This document shows positions 34,063 through 52,956 of a stretch of 64,000 nucleotides of DNA, one piece after another (the first letter of the stretch is position 1; each line of letters opens with the position of its first letter). Source of the stretch: an uncultured Pseudomonadota bacterium (lineage in GTDB: Bacteria; Myxococcota_A; UBA796; SXON01); assembly GCA_903900265.1 (NCBI GenBank), contig CAIUMM010000031.1, forward strand, positions 1 to 64,000, written 5' to 3'. The notes below the pieces were generated by a model. That model was not told where the DNA came from and did not search any database. It saw nothing but the letters and a program-made list of their open reading frames with translations. Made by a program: the position numbers and the translations under genes.

Positions 34063-34089
34063 CTATCGGTCGCTGGCCTCATCACTTTA
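34063..34089 (-). promoter_or_regulatory. FliA-type promoter of fliF-fliG-fliH-fliI
   Basis: On the minus strand TAAA, 15 bases, ACCGATAG; seven bases to the GTG of fliF. It lies four bases after the flhA stop. Confidence 0.87.
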
Positions 34090-34092
34090 GCA

Positions 34093-36174
34093 CTATTTTA
34101 GACGAATCTCAGCAGCGCGATTCAACGGCGTTCCGGGCACGATCTCGCCAGGGCTAAGCACCGGAACTCTCGGGAGCGCCTTCTCAAGCAAGCGGCGGAT
34201 CGGGCCACGCGCCAGCGGAGGAACGAGCAACACCAGCTCGCCACCGCCGCCCCAGCTCTCAGTCTGGGTGCGGATGGCGCCGATCAGGCGACGGGTCGTG
34301 TCGGGGTCGAGCATGAGCGTCATGGTGCCGCCCTCGCCGCCCTGAAGTCCGCGAACCACCGCATCTTCCGCGTCCGGACCCAGCCCCAAGTAGTAGAGCG
34401 TGCCGTCTTCCCCGAGGAACCGCGCGGTGACCGCACGGCACATGCGCTGACGCACAAACTCAGTGAGCACCTCGGGATCGCGCGTGCGCGGCGCGTACTC
34501 GGCGAGCGCCTCCAGCACCGCCTGCGTGTCCCGAACCCCGACGCCCTCCGCGATCAAGTTGCGGAACACGCGCAGCACCGCAGCGCGCGGCAACGGATCG
34601 GGGATCAGCTCCTCGACGAGGCGCGGATTGTCGGCGGTCACCCGCTCGAGTGCATCGGCGAGCTGCTGACGGCCGTAGACCTCGTGGGCGTGACGGCGAA
34701 GCAGGTCATCCAAATGGGTGGTCAGCACCGTGGGCGCATCGACCACCGTAAAGCCCTGGCTCTGCGCCCGGAGCTTGTTGGAGTCGGGGATCCAGAAGCC
34801 CTTGAGCCCGTAGACGGGATCGACGCCGCGGGTGCCGGCCAGCGTCCCGGTGGCGGTGCCTGGATCGAGCGCGAGCAGCTGCTTCGCGACGATCTTGCCG
34901 GTGCCGATGACCTCGCCGCGCAACAGCACGCGGTACTGGCCGGCGCCGAGGCGGACATTGTCGCGCAGGTGCACCGCCGGCAGCATGACGCCGAGGTTTT
35001 GCGCGACCTGCTTGCGGATCTTCTGAATGCGCTCCACCAGCGCGCCGCCGCGTTTTTCATCGACGAGGTACACAAGATCAAGCCCGACTTCGACGACCAG
35101 CGGCTCAACGCGCAGCATGTCTTCGATCTTCTGCTCGGTCGGTACGGTGGCGGCTGCGGGATCAGGAGCCACGACCTTCTCGGGCACATCCCGCAGCGTG
35201 TATGCCAGCCCGCCCAGCATCACGGTGATGACGCTGAACGGGACCCGCAGGCCGGGGACGAAGATGAAGGTCGCCGCCAGGCCGGCGAGCACAGCGAGCG
35301 CACGCGGGTTGCCGAGCAGCTGCGTCCCGAACTGCGCGTCCAAGCTCTCCTCGTCGACCGCAGAGACGCGCGTCACGAGCAGACCCGCCGCGGCGGAGAC
35401 GATGAGCGCAGGGACCTGACTCGCCAGACCGTCGCCGATGGTCAACAGCGTGTAGTTGGCCGCCGCGGTCTTCAGGCTCAAGCCGTTCATCCCGACGCCG
35501 ATGACCACGCCCGCGAGGAGGTTGATCAGCATGATCACGATCGCCGCGATCGCATCGCCTTTGATGAACTTGCTCGCGCCGTCCATCGCACCGTAGAAGT
35601 CAGCCTCGCGAGCGACCTCAGCCCGGCGACGTTTGGCGACCTTCTCATCGATCAACCCCGCGTTCAGCTCCGCGTCCACCGCCATCTGCTTGCCCGGGAG
35701 CGCGTCCAGGGTGAAGCGCGCAGCGACCTCGGCCACGCGGCCAGCGCCCTTGGTGATGACGATGAAGTTGATGACCAGCAGGATGCAAAAAAGGATGAAA
35801 CCGACAACGTAGTTGCCGCCGACCACGAAGTTCCCGAACGCCTCGATCACGTGCCCGGCGGCCCCCGGCCCCAGCGCGCCGTTGAGCAGGATCAAACGGG
35901 TGGATGCCACGTTCAACGACAACCGGAACAACGTGGAGATCAGCAGGATGATCGGAAACGACGAGAAATCGACCGGGCGCTTTACGTACAGCGAAACCAG
36001 GAAGATCAGCAATGACAGCGTGATCGACAGCGCCAGGAAGATGTCGAGCAGCAACGGCGGCAGCGGCACCATCAGCAGCGCGATCATGCCGAACACGCCA
36101 CCCGCGAGGGCGACGTCGCCGTTCGCGCGCACCGACGCCATGAACGAGCCTGCGGCAGGGACAGAGGATGCCAT
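34093..36174 (-). CDS. flhA: Flagellar export gate protein FlhA
   Basis: Large inner-membrane component of the export gate. The 693-residue product has the usual N-terminal half of about eight membrane helices (MIALLMVPLPPLLLDIFLAL onwards), the conserved cytoplasmic loop (TKGAGRVAEVAARFTLDALP, GKQMAVDAELNAGLID) and a soluble C-terminal export-substrate docking domain ending in IRLK. Length is standard. ATG at 36174 is eight bases after the -10 of its own promoter. It is a single-gene transcript or reads on into fliF. Confidence 0.97.
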   Translation of the reverse strand: MASSVPAAGSFMASVRANGDVALAGGVFGMIALLMVPLPPLLLDIFLALSITLSLLIFLVSLYVKRPVDFSSFPIILLISTLFRLSLNVASTRLILLNGALGPGAAGHVIEAFGNFVVGGNYVVGFILFCILLVINFIVITKGAGRVAEVAARFTLDALPGKQMAVDAELNAGLIDEKVAKRRRAEVAREADFYGAMDGASKFIKGDAIAAIVIMLINLLAGVVIGVGMNGLSLKTAAANYTLLTIGDGLASQVPALIVSAAAGLLVTRVSAVDEESLDAQFGTQLLGNPRALAVLAGLAATFIFVPGLRVPFSVITVMLGGLAYTLRDVPEKVVAPDPAAATVPTEQKIEDMLRVEPLVVEVGLDLVYLVDEKRGGALVERIQKIRKQVAQNLGVMLPAVHLRDNVRLGAGQYRVLLRGEVIGTGKIVAKQLLALDPGTATGTLAGTRGVDPVYGLKGFWIPDSNKLRAQSQGFTVVDAPTVLTTHLDDLLRRHAHEVYGRQQLADALERVTADNPRLVEELIPDPLPRAAVLRVFRNLIAEGVGVRDTQAVLEALAEYAPRTRDPEVLTEFVRQRMCRAVTARFLGEDGTLYYLGLGPDAEDAVVRGLQGGEGGTMTLMLDPDTTRRLIGAIRTQTESWGGGGELVLLVPPLARGPIRRLLEKALPRVPVLSPGEIVPGTPLNRAAEIRLK

Positions 36175-36182
36175 GACGTCCT

Positions 36183-36209
36183 CTATCGGTCATCCCATCC
36201 TAATGTTTA
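36183..36209 (-). promoter_or_regulatory. FliA-type promoter of flhA
   Basis: On the minus strand TAAA, 15 bases, ACCGATAG; eight bases (AGGACGTC) to the ATG of flhA. Confidence 0.87.
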
Positions 36210-36229: not shown

Positions 36230-37717
36230 TCATTTCACGTCAGCGGGCAACGCGATGCGACGCGCGTCCGCTGGGATGTCCTCGACGTGCACCACCTTGA
36301 TCTCCACGCGTCGGTTGATCGCCAACGCGTCTTCCGCCTCGGCGCCGACCAACGGACGCGACTCTCCAAAGCCCTTGGAGAGCAAGCGCATCGGCTCCAC
36401 GCCGTGCGCGACCAGCCACCGCATCACGGTGAACGCGCGCGCGTCGGAGAGCCGCGCGTTGTAGGCCGGCGAGCCGTTGCTGTTGGTGTGCCCTTCAATC
36501 AGGAACAGCGCGATCTCTGGGTGCGCCATCATCTCGTCGCGGATCGCCATCAGGACGGGGTCGGCGCTGTCGACGAGCTCGTTGTGTCCTTCCCGGAAAA
36601 AGATCGTCTCGGTGATCGCGATGTGGTCGCCCGCCATCTCGGCGATGCGCGGACATCCGTCGGAGTAGCGCGGGTCTTGCTCGGGCAGGATCGGCTCCCG
36701 AGGGCAGCCGTCCTTCTCGAAGGTCACGCCGTCGCCGTCGCCATCCAGCTCGGGACAGCCGTCCCCGTCTTCAAAGCCATCGATGGTCTCCGCCTGATCC
36801 GGGCACGCATCGTCGACGTCGAAGAAGCCGTCTGCGTCGCGATCGCCGGAGGGATCCGCAGCGAGGTCCATCACCGGATGTTCGGACTCTTCCTCGGACT
36901 CCGCCGCGCGCATCGAGAAGCCCAGCCCCGCGAAGGCGCGCCAGCGGCTCGCGCCTACGCCGTTCCCGATGCCAGCCGCCGCTCCGGCCGTGGCCCAGAT
37001 CCCCGCAGGGAGACGCATGCGGGCCGAGAGCGTGGCTTCTACGGGCACAGATTGAAGACCCCACTCCCCTTCCCCGGAGAGCTCCGCCATCGCCGAGAGC
37101 GCCTTGCTGACGCGGTATGCGACGCCGGCGCCAAACACCGGCCCAGCGCCGGACTTCAAGCCGCGATCTTCTTCGGGCAGCGACAGCAGCGCCCCCGCCA
37201 CGATCCCAACGCCGACGCGACCGAACTCATGCGCGCCGATCGCCTCAGCGAGCAGACGCGGGGCGCCGCCGACATAGTGCACCTCAGAACCGGTAGGAAA
37301 AAACGCCATCGTGTGGAGCGCGAGGCCCTTCACCCCGGGGACGCTGAGCTGCGCGCCGAGGCGGGCATCTCCGGTGGCGGCAAAGGTGCCGCCGGTGTCG
37401 GCGCCGGCGTGCAGCGGAAGCGCTGCATCCAGCCGCAGGCCGCCGAAGCTATAGGCCAACCCAAAATCGCCGGTCGCGAGGGCATCGACCACCGGCACGC
37501 GACCGGCCGGCCCAACCTCACTCAGCGGATTGTCGGCGTAGTCAAACACGAAGCCTACGTCCCAGTCGCCGCGCTCCCCGCTCTCGGGGTAGCCGAGACG
37601 CGTGAACTCCTCGGGATCACCGGTCGTCGCGCCGATCGTGAAGCCATCCGCGTCCAGCGCGGCCGCCGTCGGGATGAACAGCGCAGCGCCCCGCAAGGCG
37701 AAGATCAGCGCGAGCAT
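36230..37717 (-). CDS. OmpA-family outer-membrane protein with calcium-type repeats
   Basis: Third gene of a surface cassette between flhB and flhA. ATG at 37717 gives a signal peptide (MLALIFALRGAALFIPTAAA) and 495 residues; it overlaps the upstream gene by 13 bases. The N-terminal 260 residues look like a beta-barrel with short alternating strands. Next is an Asp-rich thrombospondin-type-3-like segment (about 285-350: DRDADGFFDVDDACPD, DGDGVTFEKDGCP). The C-terminus is an OmpA peptidoglycan-binding domain (EGHTNSNGSPAYNARLSDAR, then NRRVEIKVV). It should bridge outer membrane and cell wall. A flagellar role is suggested only by position and by the promoter at 42675. Confidence 0.9.
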   Translation of the reverse strand: MLALIFALRGAALFIPTAAALDADGFTIGATTGDPEEFTRLGYPESGERGDWDVGFVFDYADNPLSEVGPAGRVPVVDALATGDFGLAYSFGGLRLDAALPLHAGADTGGTFAATGDARLGAQLSVPGVKGLALHTMAFFPTGSEVHYVGGAPRLLAEAIGAHEFGRVGVGIVAGALLSLPEEDRGLKSGAGPVFGAGVAYRVSKALSAMAELSGEGEWGLQSVPVEATLSARMRLPAGIWATAGAAAGIGNGVGASRWRAFAGLGFSMRAAESEEESEHPVMDLAADPSGDRDADGFFDVDDACPDQAETIDGFEDGDGCPELDGDGDGVTFEKDGCPREPILPEQDPRYSDGCPRIAEMAGDHIAITETIFFREGHNELVDSADPVLMAIRDEMMAHPEIALFLIEGHTNSNGSPAYNARLSDARAFTVMRWLVAHGVEPMRLLSKGFGESRPLVGAEAEDALAINRRVEIKVVHVEDIPADARRIALPADVK

Positions 37718-40700
37718 GAGCGCGTCCGGCGCAGAGCCCCAGCAAAGCCTACGAAAAAGAGCACGCCGGCCCATTTTCCGCCGCCACATCCACCGCCGCT
37801 CAGCGGCCCGTTGTAGTCGAGGAACTCGGGGATGCCATCGCGGTCCTCGTCCTCCTCCCCCTCGCGGTGATCAAAGGCGTCGTCGCCGTCACTGTCGAGG
37901 TCCCATGCGTTGATCAGCCCGTCGTCGTCGACGTCTGTGTCGCTCAGGCCGTCCCCGCTGATGTCATAGGTCTGCTCGTTGCGCGTCAGGATGCCGTCGC
38001 CATCGTCGTCGGTGTCGAGCGCGTCGGTCACGCCGTCCCCGTCGAGATCACCGTCGGCGTCGGGCCCATCGTGGTACTCGACGCCGTCCAGCAACGTGTC
38101 GCCGTCGGTGTCCGGGTTGGTGGGATCGGTGCCCAGCAAGCTCTCGTCGAGATCGCTCAACGAGTCGCCGTCCTTGTCGTCGGACTCGGCCCAACCGTCG
38201 CAGTCGTCGTCGAGGCCGTTGACCACCTCAGTCGCGCCGGGGTTGATAGCCGGATCGGTGTCGTCGCAATCGGTGGCCAACGGGTAGCCATCGCCGTCCT
38301 GATCGTCGTCGAAGCCGTCGCAGTCCTGATCGACGCCGTCGTACCAGAGCTCCTCGGCGGCGGGGTTGATGGCGGCGTCGCTGTCATCACAGTCGGAGCT
38401 GTCGCCCATCTCGTTCTCGTAGCCGTCGCCGTCGCGATCCCACTCGTAGAAGCCGTCGCAGTCGCTGTCCAAGCCGTCGAGGGGGTCTTCCGACGCGCCG
38501 GGGTACACGTTTCGATTGCCGTCGTTGCAGTCGGTGCCGCCCGCGGCGGTCCCCGCCCAACCGTCGCCGTCCACGTCCACCAGATCCGCGCCGGAGCAGT
38601 CCTGATCGACGCCGTCGTAGGGGATCTCGATGTTGTCGGGGAAGCGCGCCGCCGACAGATCGTCGCAGTCGTCGCCGCCCCAGTCCGCGGCGTCATGGCC
38701 GTCGCGGTCTCGGTCAAAATCGCTGCGACCATCGCAGTCGCTGTCCACGCCGTCGTACCAAGTCTCGGGTCGCGTGCCGTAGACCGTCGGATCGGTGTCA
38801 TCGCAGTCGTCGCCGCCATAGAGCGCCGATTCATGGAGATCGCCGTCGGCGTCCCAGTCCGAGCCGCCGCTGCAGTCGCTGTCCACGCCATCGTACCAGG
38901 CGTCGGGAGCGCCGGGGTAAGTAGAGGCATCTTCGTCGTCGCAGTCCTCGCCGCCGGCGGCGCTGGCGCTGTAGCCATCCCCGTCGACGTCGTCCCAGTC
39001 GTAGCCGTTGCAGTCCTGGTCGATGGCGTCGTAGGGGATCTCGGCGGCTTCGGGATAAATCGAGGCGTCGTCATCGTCGCAGTCGACGTTGTCGTACCAG
39101 GAGTCGCCGTCCGCGTCCTGAACGTCCGCGTCGGGACCGCCGAAGGCGCCGATGTCGGCGCGAGAGCCGTCGACGTCGAAGATCGAAGGCGAGCCCGCGT
39201 CGATGCAGGGGCTCGTGCCCTGAAGTCCAAGGTCGTCGTTGGTCTCGTCCGCGTCGGCCGAGTACGCGACCACGAGCGGATCGGTGTCCAGATTTCCGCT
39301 CGTCCCGCTGACATCCGCCCATCCCGACCAGTCGCCGCCTGCGTTGTCCCAAACGAGGTTGTAGTACCGGTCGGAGCCGGCGTCGGTCGCGCCGTACGCT
39401 CCGCCGCCGTCCAACGCGCTGAGCAGCAGGTTGTCGATGAAGCTGACCGGCGCTTCGGTGTAGAGGTGGCCGCCGTCGTTGTTCGCGTCGTTGCCCGCGA
39501 AGGTGTTGTTGATGACCGCGACCTGCACCGTGCCGTCCAGCCAGACACCGCCGCCGTCATTCGCGGCGTTGTCGGTGACGCGCATGTTGACCAACGAGGC
39601 CGATGTGGTCGGGGAGCGCAGGACGATCGCGCCGCCTTCGTCTGCGGTGTTTCCGTGCAAATACGCCCGAGCAACCGAGACGGTGTCGTTGCGGTCAAAG
39701 CAGAAGGCGCCGCCACCAAGGCCGGCATCATTCCGAAAGCCGACCACCTCGCGCAGCTCCACGCTGCCGCCGTCCGCGAAGATCGCGCCGCCGTCGTCAT
39801 CGGCGACGTTGCTGGTGAACCGCGTGCCCTCGACCACGAGATCACCGCCCGCGCCGACCGCGCCGCCGCTCCCGAGGGTTGCGGTGTTTCCATCGAAACT
39901 TCCGTCGGTGATCGAGAGCGTGCCCCCGGCCCAAACGCCGCCGCCGTCGCCGTAGGCCGCCCGGTTGGTGTAGAAGGTCGCGGTGTCGAGCGCGACGTCC
40001 CCCTCCCCGTACACGCCGCCGCCATCCCCGCGCGCAACGTTCGCAGAAAATACAGTACCGAACAGGCTCACTGCGGCCGTCCCCGCGAGCGCGAGCGCGC
40101 CGCCGTCCCCGTCCGCGCCGTTGTCCTCCCAGTTCCCGTCTACGTCCTCAAACGCCGAGCCGGAGCCGATCAACACGCCGCCGCCATCGCCGCCGGCGTC
40201 GTTTCCGTCGATCACGCACGCGGAGCACGCCAGCGAGGCCCCGCTGTGCACCCACGCTGCGGCGCCGTCCGAGGTGGACGAATGGCCGGTCAACGTCACG
40301 CGCAGCAGGACGCCGCTTGCCGCATCCGAGAGGTCGATGCCTGCTGCGGTGTTGGCCGAACCGCCGGCGAGCACCGTGTCCGTCAGCGCCAGCGTGGAGC
40401 CGTCACCGGTAAAAATCGTGCCGCCCGAGCCGCCGGCGCTCTCGCAACGACCGTCGGTGATGCTGGAGTCCGTCAAGTCCAGACCGGCGTGCGCCGTCAG
40501 TAAAAATCCACCACCATCGCCCGCAGTTGCCACAGGCGAGTCAACGACGATCCCGGTGCCGGTGAACGTGGACGCGTCCAGCCACGCAAAACCGCCCTCT
40601 CGCTCCGCGGTGGGGGCGGTCGCTAAGACATCGGTGAGCTGGATCGTCGACGCATCATCGGCCCAGATCGCGCCCCCGTCGGTCGCGACGCCGTCGCTGA

Positions 40701-41205
40701 GCACCAGATCGCTGCCGATCAAGGCCGCGCCGCCGGTCAGGTAGATGTGTCCGCCAAAGGTGGCGATGCTCCCGCTCATGCTCGCGTTGGACAACACCAC
40801 GGTGCCGCCATCCACCGAAAGCCCGCCGCCGCGCGCGCCGACCGAGCCCGCGCCCTCGATCACGATGTCCGAGGCGTTCAACGTGCTGCCGGTGACCACA
40901 ACGCCGCGGCCCCCCGAAGGCGCGATGGTGAACCCCTGCAGCGACGCGCTCTCGCCGGCTTCGATGACCACAGCGTCCGCCGAGGTCGCGGGGGCGATGA
41001 TCGTCGCGGCCGAACCATCGGTGCTGCGCAGGGTCAGATCGCGGCCGCCGAGGTTGATGGACTCCGCGTACGCACCAGGTTGTACCTCGATGATGTCCCC
41101 ATCACTCGCGGCGCCCACGGCGTCGGAGATCGTCGCGTAGGGCTCAGCGGGCCCGACCGACAAGGTGGCGGCTCGGGCAGAGAGGACGAGCAGCAGCGAG
41201 GTCAT
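37705..41205 (-). CDS. Large surface protein: beta-helix, MopE-type metal-binding repeats, C-terminal sorting tail
   Basis: The 1,166-residue product begins with a signal peptide (MTSLLLVLSARAAT). Residues about 20-650 are a right-handed parallel beta-helix of the PbH1 type with Gly/Asp-rich turns (YATISDAVGAASDGDIIEV, and many NTADEGGAI- or GDGGGV-type turns). Residues about 700-1005 hold seven MopE-like units of the form DCDDxDxxxxPxxxExxYDGVDxDCDG. Residues about 1005-1135 are Asp-rich calcium-type repeats (DTDGDTLLDG, DDDGDGI). The tail GGGCGGGKWAGVLFFVGFAG plus basic end resembles MYXO-CTERM or GlyGly-CTERM sorting signals. It is probably cell-surface attached and metal loaded. It overlaps the preceding gene by four bases (ATGA). 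Confidence 0.9.
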   Translation of the reverse strand: MTSLLLVLSARAATLSVGPAEPYATISDAVGAASDGDIIEVQPGAYAESINLGGRDLTLRSTDGSAATIIAPATSADAVVIEAGESASLQGFTIAPSGGRGVVVTGSTLNASDIVIEGAGSVGARGGGLSVDGGTVVLSNASMSGSIATFGGHIYLTGGAALIGSDLVLSDGVATDGGAIWADDASTIQLTDVLATAPTAEREGGFAWLDASTFTGTGIVVDSPVATAGDGGGFLLTAHAGLDLTDSSITDGRCESAGGSGGTIFTGDGSTLALTDTVLAGGSANTAAGIDLSDAASGVLLRVTLTGHSSTSDGAAAWVHSGASLACSACVIDGNDAGGDGGGVLIGSGSAFEDVDGNWEDNGADGDGGALALAGTAAVSLFGTVFSANVARGDGGGVYGEGDVALDTATFYTNRAAYGDGGGVWAGGTLSITDGSFDGNTATLGSGGAVGAGGDLVVEGTRFTSNVADDDGGAIFADGGSVELREVVGFRNDAGLGGGAFCFDRNDTVSVARAYLHGNTADEGGAIVLRSPTTSASLVNMRVTDNAANDGGGVWLDGTVQVAVINNTFAGNDANNDGGHLYTEAPVSFIDNLLLSALDGGGAYGATDAGSDRYYNLVWDNAGGDWSGWADVSGTSGNLDTDPLVVAYSADADETNDDLGLQGTSPCIDAGSPSIFDVDGSRADIGAFGGPDADVQDADGDSWYDNVDCDDDDASIYPEAAEIPYDAIDQDCNGYDWDDVDGDGYSASAAGGEDCDDEDASTYPGAPDAWYDGVDSDCSGGSDWDADGDLHESALYGGDDCDDTDPTVYGTRPETWYDGVDSDCDGRSDFDRDRDGHDAADWGGDDCDDLSAARFPDNIEIPYDGVDQDCSGADLVDVDGDGWAGTAAGGTDCNDGNRNVYPGASEDPLDGLDSDCDGFYEWDRDGDGYENEMGDSSDCDDSDAAINPAAEELWYDGVDQDCDGFDDDQDGDGYPLATDCDDTDPAINPGATEVVNGLDDDCDGWAESDDKDGDSLSDLDESLLGTDPTNPDTDGDTLLDGVEYHDGPDADGDLDGDGVTDALDTDDDGDGILTRNEQTYDISGDGLSDTDVDDDGLINAWDLDSDGDDAFDHREGEEDEDRDGIPEFLDYNGPLSGGGCGGGKWAGVLFFVGFAGALRRTRSCSR

Positions 41206-42626
41206 GCGGTGTACTTCTTGGGTTTACGGCGGAGCTTGACCGCGGCAAGGGCGATGCCGACGATCACCAACGAAGGAGGACCAGACTGCGAGGCGCAGCC
41301 GCAGCCTCCGGGCTCACCGGTGATGTCCGCGGCCGAATACAGCGGCCCGGAGCCCGAGTCGCCCGAGTCCGCGACGCCCGAGTCGGCGCTGTCGCCGGTG
41401 TCGCCGCTGTCGCCGGTCTCTCCGGTCTCGCCCGTCTCTCCGGTGTCCCCGCTGTCACCGGAGTCGCCGGTTCCTTCCTCGAAGGTCACCACGGCTTCGT
41501 CGATCTCCAGCGTGCCGTTGGCCTCAAAGGAGAAGTCCGAGACCGCAGCGAGCGAGGTGGTCAGCGGCGCTGCGTCGCCCCAGATGGCCGTCAGCGTCGT
41601 GCCGTCCCACTCGAGGTGGAGTCGGGTCCACGTCCCCGCCGTCGGGACTCCCGTCGCGATGCTCGGAGCGCCGTCACAGGTCGCCGCGAGTCGCCAGGTC
41701 AGTCCATCGAGAGCGAGCGCAGGATCGGTAGGGAGGTCACACGCAAGCTCCAACGGGCCTACATCCGCCGCATCGTCCGCCAAGCTCGGGTCCGCGTCGT
41801 GCGACAGGTGCACACCGTCAAAAGCATCCCACGCCGCGTCGTAGCTGCCGAGCACGTCCAAGGCGTGCAGGCGGCCGTCGTCGGCGAGCAGCGAATCGAC
41901 CACAAACGTCACGCCATCGGACGAAGTCGCGAGCGTCAACCCATCCACATCGGTGTACCAAAGACGCCAAACGCCGGACGCGTCCACCGCGACCGCGTCG
42001 AGATCGCCATCCGCAACCGCGACCGGATTGCCAAAGTCTACGCCGTCATCTGCCTCAACTCGGCAGATAGAGCCACCACAATTGGCGTAGAGCACCACGC
42101 GCCCGCCGTCGACCACCGCGCTGGGCGCCGTACCCGCAGCGACCACGCCGATGTCGGTCCAGACGATGCCGTCGACCGACGTGGCCGCGTACACGTCATC
42201 GCCCACGGAGCGATAAAGAAACCAATCGGAGCCCATTTTGACGAGGTCAGGCTCCTCCCCCGTCAGCCCGCTCGAAACCGACACCCAAGCCTGCTCTGAC
42301 GCAGGCAGCGCCGCGCTCACCGCGGGGTCCACGCCGGACAGCTCAAGGCCACCGCCGGCACCCCAGGCGGCCGTCAACGCGGCCTCCCCGGCATGGGTGG
42401 TGATCGAACCCCCGTCGGTGAGGCGAATCCGCGCGTCCAGCGTGAAGCTGTCTAAGGGGCCGGTCGTGAGCGTCGCGCTGCCGTCGGTCACGCGAAGCAC
42501 GCCATCTGCGACCGTGCCACCGACCCAATCTCCGGCGTTCGTCGAAAACGAAGCGCCGCTGGACCCAGCCCAACTCGACGGGATCAACGCCAAAAGAACG
42601 ATGGGGAGCGTCAAGACAGCCGCCAC
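41202..42626 (-). CDS. Exported beta-propeller-like protein with MYXO-CTERM-like tail; start uncertain
   Basis: First gene of the surface cassette. From GTG at 42626 it has 474 residues: hydrophobic signal (TLPIVLLALIPSSWAG), a lectin-like N-terminal part, a propeller-like part resembling glycosyl-hydrolase-43-type blades (SDWFLYRSVGDDVYAATSVD, VWRLWYTDVDGLTLATSSDG), a second concanavalin-like part, a linker of Gly-Asp-Ser/Thr repeats (about 393-430) and a tail with GGCGCASQSG, a helix and KLRRKPKK. The signal lacks basic residues before the hydrophobic core, and no ribosome site precedes GTG. An ATG at 42667 fits the promoter spacing perfectly but is in another frame and stops after 18 codons. 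A frameshift (real or assembly) is likely. Confidence 0.82.
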   Translation of the reverse strand: MAAVLTLPIVLLALIPSSWAGSSGASFSTNAGDWVGGTVADGVLRVTDGSATLTTGPLDSFTLDARIRLTDGGSITTHAGEAALTAAWGAGGGLELSGVDPAVSAALPASEQAWVSVSSGLTGEEPDLVKMGSDWFLYRSVGDDVYAATSVDGIVWTDIGVVAAGTAPSAVVDGGRVVLYANCGGSICRVEADDGVDFGNPVAVADGDLDAVAVDASGVWRLWYTDVDGLTLATSSDGVTFVVDSLLADDGRLHALDVLGSYDAAWDAFDGVHLSHDADPSLADDAADVGPLELACDLPTDPALALDGLTWRLAATCDGAPSIATGVPTAGTWTRLHLEWDGTTLTAIWGDAAPLTTSLAAVSDFSFEANGTLEIDEAVVTFEEGTGDSGDSGDTGETGETGETGDSGDTGDSADSGVADSGDSGSGPLYSAADITGEPGGCGCASQSGPPSLVIVGIALAAVKLRRKPKKYTA

Positions 42627-42674
42627 AGTGAGACGGAAAAGGCAAAGGACGAGAGGACGCGGCTCATGTTCTTC

Positions 42675-42701
42675 CTATCGGTCGCGGATTTGGAGATTTT
42701 A
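42675..42701 (-). promoter_or_regulatory. FliA-type promoter of the surface-protein cassette
   Basis: On the minus strand TAAA, 15 bases, ACCGATAG, identical in form to those of fliF and flhA. Seven bases separate the -10 from the ATG at 42667. Confidence 0.85.
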
Positions 42702-42735: not shown

Positions 42736-43797
42736 CTACCGTTTGTGCCGACGACGGTAGACCAGCGCCAGCACCTGCGCAACCGGTCCGAAAAACTCGG
42801 AGGGAATTGGAGCCCCGACCTTCGAGCGCGCGTAGAGCGCACGGGCGAGCGTACGGTTTTCGATCACCGGGATGTCGTGCCGCCCCGCCTCGGCGCGGAT
42901 CTTCAGCGCGATGTTGTCCAGCCCCCGCGCGAGCACCATCGGCGACGCGTTCTCTTCTTTGCGGTACCGCAGCGCGACGGCAAAATGGGTGGGGTTGGCG
43001 ACGATGACGTCGGCCTTGACGACGTTTGCGAGCTGGCGTCCGGTCGCCAGTTGGCGAGCGCGCTGGCGACGCCGGGCGCGGATCTGCGGATCGCCCTCCG
43101 AGTCCTTGTTCTCCTGACGCACATCCTGACGCGTCATCATCATCTGTTCGGAGAGCTGGTAGCGTTGCCACGCAAAGTCTGCGGCGCCGACGGCCAGCGC
43201 AACCGGCAGCGCCCGCGTCAACACGGCCCGCGTGAGCACCTCGATGAACCCCAGCTGCGCCCCCACTTGCCACGACCCGGCGACCGGTAACGACGCCATG
43301 TGGTCGACCAGCGAAGAATACACCGCCCAGATCAGCAAGGTGGCGACCGCCGCCGCTTTTGCGAGGCTGACCCAGGGCGTCGCAGAGAAGAACATGCTCT
43401 TCGCGGCGCCTAACGGGTCCATCCGCGAGAGGTCCGGGGTGATGGCCTCCGAGCTCAGGTTGAAGCCGGTGAGCACGAGCCCGACGCCGATGCCTGCGAC
43501 GATGCCGGGGGTCAGCGCGAGCAAGATGCCTGGTCCCAGCGCGGTCATCGTACGCAACCCCAGCGTCATGACATCCGACGCCACGAACTCCCGGGTGGCG
43601 CCGCGGGCGAAGCTGTCGCGCGCCACATGCAGCAAGCCTGCTCCGATGTACGGCACGGCTTGAAACATCGCAAAAGCGCTGGTAGCCAGTCCGATCGCCG
43701 CGAGCAGCTCCTTGGACGTGGCGACTTTGCCTTCGCGACGGAACTTTTGTATCTGCTGTTCTGTAGCTTGTTCTGTCTTTTCTGCGCCCTCAGCCAT
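42736..43797 (-). CDS. flhB: Flagellar export switch protein FlhB
   Basis: Export-gate protein that changes substrate specificity after self-cleavage. The 353-residue product starts with the typical KTEQATEQQIQKFRREGKVA, has about four membrane helices, then the cytoplasmic domain with the autocleavage site NPTH (VANPTHFAVALRYRKEE). End of the fliN-fliO-fliP-fliQ-fliR-flhB operon, three bases after fliR. Confidence 0.97.
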   Translation of the reverse strand: MAEGAEKTEQATEQQIQKFRREGKVATSKELLAAIGLATSAFAMFQAVPYIGAGLLHVARDSFARGATREFVASDVMTLGLRTMTALGPGILLALTPGIVAGIGVGLVLTGFNLSSEAITPDLSRMDPLGAAKSMFFSATPWVSLAKAAAVATLLIWAVYSSLVDHMASLPVAGSWQVGAQLGFIEVLTRAVLTRALPVALAVGAADFAWQRYQLSEQMMMTRQDVRQENKDSEGDPQIRARRRQRARQLATGRQLANVVKADVIVANPTHFAVALRYRKEENASPMVLARGLDNIALKIRAEAGRHDIPVIENRTLARALYARSKVGAPIPSEFFGPVAQVLALVYRRRHKR

Positions 43798-52218: not shown

Positions 52219-52956
52219 TTGGCGCGTAAACCCAAGCACGAAGAGCACGAGAACCACGAACGTTGGCTCGTCAGCTACGCGGACTTCATCACGCTGTTGT
52301 TCGCGTTTTTTACCGTGCTTTACGCGACGGCGCAGACCGACCAAAAGAAGCTGGACGCGCTGATCAACGGCATGAACGCCGCGTTTGAAGGCGGCATGCC
52401 CCAAGCGCTGCTCGACGTGCTGTCCATGCAGCGCGAGCCGCCGGACATCCCGGAGATCGTGCCCAACCACCTTGCGATGGAGTCCGCCGATCCGACGATG
52501 ATCGCGCTCAAGCGCAACCTCACCGGGTCGCTATCCGACCACGTGCTGCAGCTGGGCCTCGTGGACCAGGAGCTGACGCTGGTGCTTCCAGAGAAGCTGC
52601 TGTTCGCCCGAGGCAGCGCAGAGCTGCATCCCAGCGCCTACGCCGTGCTCACCGAGATCGCCGAAGCGCTGAGCACGGTCTCCGCAGAAGTCGAGGTGAT
52701 CGGCCACGCCGACGGTCTGGCCCTCGCAGTCGGGGGTCCGTACGTCGACAACTGGGAGCTCTCCTCCGAGCGCGCGCTCGCTACCGTGCGCTACCTTGCC
52801 CGGCACGGCGTGCCGGTCGCCCACATGACCGCGAGCGCGACGGTGGCCACGCTGGTGGACGCGGAAGCCCGGGCCGTCACCATTCAGGTGCGCCTGGCCG
52901 ACCCTGCGCCCGCGGCAGAAGTGGCGGAGAAAGTCATGAACGAGACACCTAAGTGA
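52219..52956 (+). CDS. motB: Flagellar stator protein MotB
   Basis: Peptidoglycan-anchored stator subunit. TTG start at 52219; 245 residues. The single helix SYADFITLLFAFFTVLYATA has the essential ion-binding Asp. Then a plug/linker and an OmpA-like peptidoglycan-binding domain (LLFARGSAELHPSAYAVLTE, VEVIGHADGLA, WELSSERALATVRYLARHGV). Which ion is used cannot be told with certainty. Confidence 0.95.
   Translation: MARKPKHEEHENHERWLVSYADFITLLFAFFTVLYATAQTDQKKLDALINGMNAAFEGGMPQALLDVLSMQREPPDIPEIVPNHLAMESADPTMIALKRNLTGSLSDHVLQLGLVDQELTLVLPEKLLFARGSAELHPSAYAVLTEIAEALSTVSAEVEVIGHADGLALAVGGPYVDNWELSSERALATVRYLARHGVPVAHMTASATVATLVDAEARAVTIQVRLADPAPAAEVAEKVMNETPK

Follow-up and report, generated by a model that had tools for sequence, protein, structure and literature searches.

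A surface-protein cassette with a FliA-type promoter and TraB-like layout in the flagellar gene cluster of an uncultured Myxococcota lineage

The window analyzed here, 64,000 nucleotides (nt) of contig CAIUMM010000031.1 (C31) from the 5.8 Mb draft genome of an uncultured bacterium (GTDB Myxococcota_A; UBA796; SXON01), is occupied by one flagellar gene cluster (flgE ... fliC, fliD, fliS) and encodes, between flhB and flhA, three overlapping minus-strand genes, here named PROP1, MOPE2 and OMPA3. Sequence comparisons strongly support that this cassette belongs to the flagellar (FliA) regulon, and they identify the MOPE2-OMPA3 pair as its conserved unit, one orthologous clade confined to the taxonomic order of the window's genome. 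The reading we favor, to which we give about an even chance, is that the cassette is a surface adhesin/receptor module of TraA/TraB architecture which has been recruited into the flagellar regulon, anchored to peptidoglycan and displayed on swimming cells. An initial annotation of the window had likewise placed a surface-protein cassette within the flagellar regulon, and the promoter, flagella co-occurrence and synteny tests presented below bear this out.

Promoter and regulon membership

A FliA (sigma-28)-type promoter with the form TAAA-N15-ACCGATAG was found in front of the cassette (42675–42701, minus strand). Its elements are identical to those of the promoters preceding flhA (36183–36209, minus strand) and fliF (34063–34089, minus strand), as the initial annotation had claimed. 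Since the flhA promoter is a copy of its own, located downstream of the trio, the trio and flhA are regarded as separate transcription units. The strict motif TAAA-N15-ACCGATA[AG] had six matches in the window and none in 100 shuffles, and the broader TMAA-N15-ACCGAT had 10 matches versus 0.1 expected from shuffles. Across the whole 5.8 Mb the broader motif occurs at 16 sites, compared to three for a reversed control pattern. Eleven of the 16 are found in the flagellar cluster (C31, 26.9–64.6 kb), where they precede flgD, fliJ, fliF, flhA, the cassette, the fliO region, fliL, fliA, flgI, fliC2 and flgB; a FliA-type promoter before flgB-flgC is located just beyond the end of the window (G000 C31:64555).

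The promoter is also found at orthologous cassettes. Of 16 testable cassettes in the window's family, 14 have the motif at most 120 nt upstream, compared to 7 among 277 other genes (P 5e-17), and cassettes distant from flagellar genes still keep it. It is present before the cassette in three genomes of family f3 as well, and in G014 and G015, where the MOPE2-OMPA3 pair is split, each gene carries its own copy of the motif. No motif was found at the first gene of the paralogous modules in the window's genome (L084–L089). Many of the FliA-type sites, both in the window (26951–58857) and at orthologous cassettes, end 7–9 nt before a start codon, which suggests that the flagellar mRNAs may be leaderless.

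Distribution and synteny in the order

The order was represented by 63 species genomes, mostly uncultured drafts and most of them 70–99% complete; the named records of the relatives come from metagenomes of lakes and other sources, and most were submitted under Deltaproteobacteria or Proteobacteria. A placement in Myxococcota is suggested by MYXO-CTERM and MrtX-like genes. A profile built on the barrel only separated orthologs (at least 205 bits) from paralogs (at most 136 bits), with the exception of one closer paralog (240–250 bits) in G000 and G004, whose G000 copy does not group with the cassettes in the tree. Orthologs of MOPE2-OMPA3 were found in 30 genomes and in two more (G033 and G035) where they are truncated by contig ends before flhA, giving 32 in total. 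FlhA was found in 39 genomes, and two further ones (G014 and G016) lack flhA in the assembly yet encode flagellins, so they were rejected as exceptions to the flagellar link and counted among 41 flagellated species. Of the 22 species classed as non-flagellated, 11 FlhA-negative genomes were tested and had no flagellin, and the other 11 were assigned by missing FlhA alone. Of the 41 flagellated species, 32 encode the pair; of the 22 non-flagellated ones, none does (Fisher 4e-10, or 4e-8 with stratification by family). As nine flagellated species, including most of family f4, are without it, the pair is not a core part of the motor, and the idea of a core flagellar component was rejected.

All 29 cassette barrels tested formed a single clade (support 100/99) in a tree whose other members were paralogs from within the order only, with branching that largely follows the families. 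Beyond the order, a set of 71 genomes from the class and one of 379 from the phylum, both including the order's own, yielded no ortholog, and a literature search returned no flagellum-linked MopE/OmpA cassette. The analyzed genome additionally encodes TraB-like barrel/OmpA genes beside MopE-repeat genes at C31:80911–82605 and C182:54665–56287 (L084 and L085), without the flagellar motif; these genes point to a module family present in multiple copies. A second trio with a FliA-type motif in front was observed in G015 (L152, 8360–13502) and G014 (L153, 8911–14005), in which a gene of PROP1 type comes first, together with genes for a DxDxDG protein and for an OmpA-barrel paralog other than OMPA3. 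Four records with orthologous cassettes (L222, L224, L227 and L228) bear the name Klebsiella pneumoniae or Bifidobacterium breve in their titles; their sequences group with this lineage, and the titles look wrong.

In the window, the gene coordinates confirm the three overlapping genes between flhB and flhA that had been annotated initially: PROP1 (41202–42626, 474 residues), MOPE2 (37705–41205, 1166 residues) and OMPA3 (36230–37789, 519 residues), flanked by flhB (42736–43797) upstream and flhA (34093–36174) downstream, all on the minus strand. The overlap between PROP1 and MOPE2 is 4 nt; that between the MOPE2 and OMPA3 open reading frames (ORFs) is 85 nt, or approximately 13 nt if OMPA3 begins at the signal-peptide ATG at 37717, which is likely its true start. 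The flhB side of this arrangement is specific to the genus, and flhA is kept as a neighbor by 11 of the 32 cassettes. The usual operon across the order is flhA-fliA-flgF-flgG-flgA, led by flhA, and the pair lies upstream of flhA (adjoining or within ~6 kb) in 11 genomes from four families (G000, G002, G004, G005, G008, G009, G019, G026, G033, G035 and G036); its position next to flhA is thus apparently the ancestral one. Most of the other genomes have the cassette at a distance from flagellar genes. The arrangement between flhB and flhA occurs only in the window's genus, where flhA has been relocated beside fliF, whereas elsewhere the cassette precedes flhA-fliA-flgF-flgG or is unlinked. The initial annotation had treated the trio as the unit; the cassette is real, but what is conserved is the pair. 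Since full-length PROP1 is confined to the window's family, the trio is this family's version of a pair that exists at the level of the order.

The encoded proteins and their fusions

MOPE2 comprises a signal peptide, a beta-helix with POMP-type repeats (residues ~20–690; Pfam Beta_helix), seven MopE repeats (PF11617 ×7; DCDD/DxDxDG; residues ~700–1010) followed by further DxDxDG repeats, with 15 DxDxDG motifs in the protein, and a MYXO-CTERM-like tail (37708–37797, minus strand; GGGCGGGKWAGVLFFVGFAGALRRTRSCSR). The tail has the form GGGCGGG, transmembrane (TM) helix, RR, and by inspection the relatives examined have GGGC-TM-RR in the same position. The MYXO-CTERM profile gave no match in the window's MOPE2; the signature itself (invariant Cys, TM helix, Arg cluster) is present in the tails of both MOPE2 and PROP1. 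A 1,166-residue beta-helix/MopE protein with a sorting tail had been predicted initially, and the domain matches and the tail agree with this. The metal is a different matter: copper binding was taken from a Pfam name, and the acidic DxDxDG/DCDD repeats appear to resemble calcium-binding rather than copper-binding ones.

OMPA3 was predicted, from an AlphaFold2 (AF2) model together with Pfam matches, to have the domain order signal peptide, barrel, TSP3, OmpA, consistent with the peptidoglycan-binding barrel of the initial annotation. The 12-stranded beta-barrel spans residues 76–293 (36911–37564, minus strand) and the OmpA-type peptidoglycan-binding domain residues ~383–499 (36293–36643, minus strand; Pfam OmpA, 1.2e-13). 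The TSP3 linker scores below the Pfam cut-off and, with the exception of G029, is missing from OMPA3 orthologs outside family f1. The best fold matches of the barrel were FapF/COG4313 outer-membrane channels (5o68, TMt 0.68; 4rl8, TMt 0.63), at 10–15% identity; the PDB matches span the barrel only, whereas OMPA3 adds the TSP3 linker and the OmpA domain. The motor-associated MotB and MotY proteins have a related OmpA domain, and OMPA3 shares their setting in the flagellar regulon, but it possesses a barrel for the outer membrane and lacks the motor helix of the inner membrane. A probable motB, named from its position and homologs, is found in the window at 52219–52956.

PROP1 alone matched no Pfam domain. 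A profile of 17 orthologs, in contrast, matched GH130, GH32 and GH43 enzymes, and the AF2 model (predicted local distance difference test score 79; >90 over most of the fold) matched five-bladed GH43/GH32 propellers in the PDB, in line with the 'propeller-like' label given initially. The protein consists of a signal peptide, a five-bladed propeller with jelly-roll strands, a short acidic linker rich in Thr, Ser, Asp and Gly, and a MYXO-CTERM tail (residues ~439–467; GCGC) whose profile score of 18.5 is just below the cut-off of 20, a weak match to the tail annotated earlier. PROP1 thus resembles the five-bladed enzymes both in sequence profile and in fold, but 7 of the 17 orthologs, including the window's own (P126; E), have E, G, S or H in place of the Asp of the N-terminal DP motif of the GH43/GH130 type, which makes a binding rather than a catalytic role likely. 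The start of PROP1 is uncertain, as the annotated GTG is at 42626 and an ATG at 42667, 8 nt past the promoter, is out of frame. In the window's genus (window 42611–42667, L051 and L052), a short ORF opens 7–8 nt past the cassette promoter; it reads MSRVLSSFAFSVSLWRLS in the window and is not in the frame of PROP1, which starts further downstream.

In ten genomes from four families (L054, L057, L139, L151, L158, L160, L161, L076, L235 and L236), MOPE2 and OMPA3 are encoded by one uninterrupted frame with an internal MYXO-CTERM, and two further candidate fused frames end at contig ends. The junction of nine of the ten follows the same order, with GGGC, a hydrophobic stretch, an Arg cluster, a signal-peptide-type hydrophobic stretch and the barrel; the exception, G152 (L236), has no clear second hydrophobic stretch. 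Such a junction could form an inner-membrane hairpin, cleavable by myxosortase and signal peptidase into two proteins, and the fused MOPE2-OMPA3 is a probable bacterial polyprotein. As for the protease, one MrtX-like match per genome was found in eight of eight genomes (E 1e-28 to 1e-40), all under the 180-bit family cut-off. A single fusion of this kind, MXAN_5598, has been noted in Myxococcus xanthus, where the same processing was proposed (PMC11980579).

Proposed role and comparison with known systems

In the outer membrane exchange system of M. xanthus, TraB is a protein with a barrel, TSP3 and OmpA, and TraA is a MYXO-CTERM surface receptor (PMC12045341); the two genes overlap by four bases (PMC3325183). 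MOPE2-OMPA3 is laid out alike, with a MYXO-CTERM surface protein followed by an overlapping barrel-TSP3-OmpA gene, and OMPA3 aligns with the TraB-like protein of L169 over 413 columns (99.9%, E 3e-35). The TraB family model gave OMPA3 148.6 bits, compared to a cut-off of 700, and matched residues 245–502, i.e. the C-terminal half only. Because of this score, and because the barrel alone gives no significant match, OMPA3 was rejected as a true TraB and is described as TraB-like in layout. The L169 locus itself (116–2988, G121) encodes a TraA-like Cys-rich protein overlapping by 4 nt with the TraB-like gene, which at 612 bits is just below the TraB cut-off.

The adhesin/receptor reading is based on the regulon promoter, the co-occurrence with flagella, the TraB-like layout, the MYXO-CTERM tails, the fused frames as in MXAN_5598 and the likeness of PROP1 to glycan-acting propellers. 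FliA, whose promoter is recognizable in the sequence, would transcribe the cassette along with the flagellar genes. OMPA3 would place its predicted 12-strand barrel in the outer membrane while the OmpA domain grips peptidoglycan. After export, MOPE2 would be cleaved by myxosortase at its MYXO-CTERM and, once lipidated, be displayed on the surface. There, its acidic repeats, probably stiffened by calcium, would carry the beta-helix outward, with the OMPA3 barrel holding MOPE2 as TraB holds TraA. In one family, tethered PROP1 would add a sugar-enzyme-like propeller, probably as a glycan-binding head. The presumed purpose would be adhesion or recognition, with swimming cells carrying a load-bearing receptor for another cell, prey, a particle or a surface. 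Of the three roles offered in the initial annotation, an adhesin co-expressed with motility fits best.

Several observations weigh against this reading. The likeness to TraB resides in TSP3 and OmpA, and the match to the TraB barrel alone is not significant (E 0.5); MOPE2 has a beta-helix and MopE repeats in place of the variable domain and Cys-rich repeats of TraA; the MrtX matches fall under the family cut-off; and a purely structural flagellar role predicts an identical regulon and co-occurrence.

Such a structural role is the main rival, though we consider it unlikely: particular to this lineage, the proteins would build a collar, bushing or sheath-associated ring in the outer membrane at the base of the flagellum, with OMPA3 tying the membrane to peptidoglycan around the rod. 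The strict limitation to flagellated species, the FliA-type promoter, the adjacency to flhA in four families and the OmpA/MotB-type peptidoglycan-binding domain all agree with a ring. However, the species lacking the pair would allow it as an accessory part only, the genome encodes several TraB-like modules, of which the cassette alone shows a flagellar link, and in M. xanthus MYXO-CTERM sends proteins to the general cell surface (PMC11980579). No direct evidence was found for the collar or sheath suggested in the initial annotation. We give a similarly low probability to a variant in which, in this order, a TraAB-type module would have turned into a physical part of the flagellum. The resulting collar or sheath layer would be anchored to the outer membrane and peptidoglycan and, in many species, be produced as a single polyprotein whose cleavage yields a barrel and a beta-helix/MopE rod tethered to the surface.

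A functional counterpart of TraAB, serving kin recognition, outer-membrane fusion or exchange and expressed in the motile phase, appears doubtful. The two-gene order with short overlap or fusion and the OMPA3/TraB domain order are the same, and TraAB activity requires cell movement (PMC3325183, PMC12045341), but the TraA-specific regions are absent from MOPE2, OMPA3 scores far under the TraB cut-off, and the packed contacts needed by TraAB would be absent in planktonic lake bacteria. A copper- or calcium-scavenging surface system, as the MopE name implies, located near flhA incidentally, is very improbable: the seven PF11617 repeats and 15 DxDxDG motifs would suit it, but similar acidic-repeat genes occur elsewhere in the genome without a flagellar link, and the promoter and distribution of the cassette track flagella. 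Chance insertion into the flagellar cluster is hardly credible, for although the cassette is located elsewhere in the genome in many species, those unlinked cassettes retain the same promoter, for which reason a fortuitous promoter was rejected, and the cassette is absent from every one of the 22 non-flagellated species.

The known modules of this architecture belong to gliding myxobacteria, where TraAB mediates, and MXAN_5598 is proposed to mediate, attachment and recognition; here, that architecture is coupled to FliA and limited to flagellated relatives. If the adhesin/receptor reading is true, contact receptors and swimming are coupled in this branch, and the cassette offers a system for asking how surface recognition modules get recruited to different cell machines. 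With ten fused genomes, the single fused case of M. xanthus becomes a recurring arrangement, in which cleavage at an internal sorting tag is directly testable. Compared to TraA/TraB, the cassette alone sits in a flagellar regulon. MXAN_5598, described as an adhesin-barrel fusion (PMC11980579), combines an adhesin region, an internal MYXO-CTERM, a barrel and OmpA in one polypeptide, as the fused MOPE2-OMPA3 does when compared by described layout, and its gene likewise lies among those of a core cell machine (ftsA/ftsZ; PMC11980579). Its neighborhood is, however, that of cell division rather than the flagellum, and the window encodes two adjoining genes in place of one.

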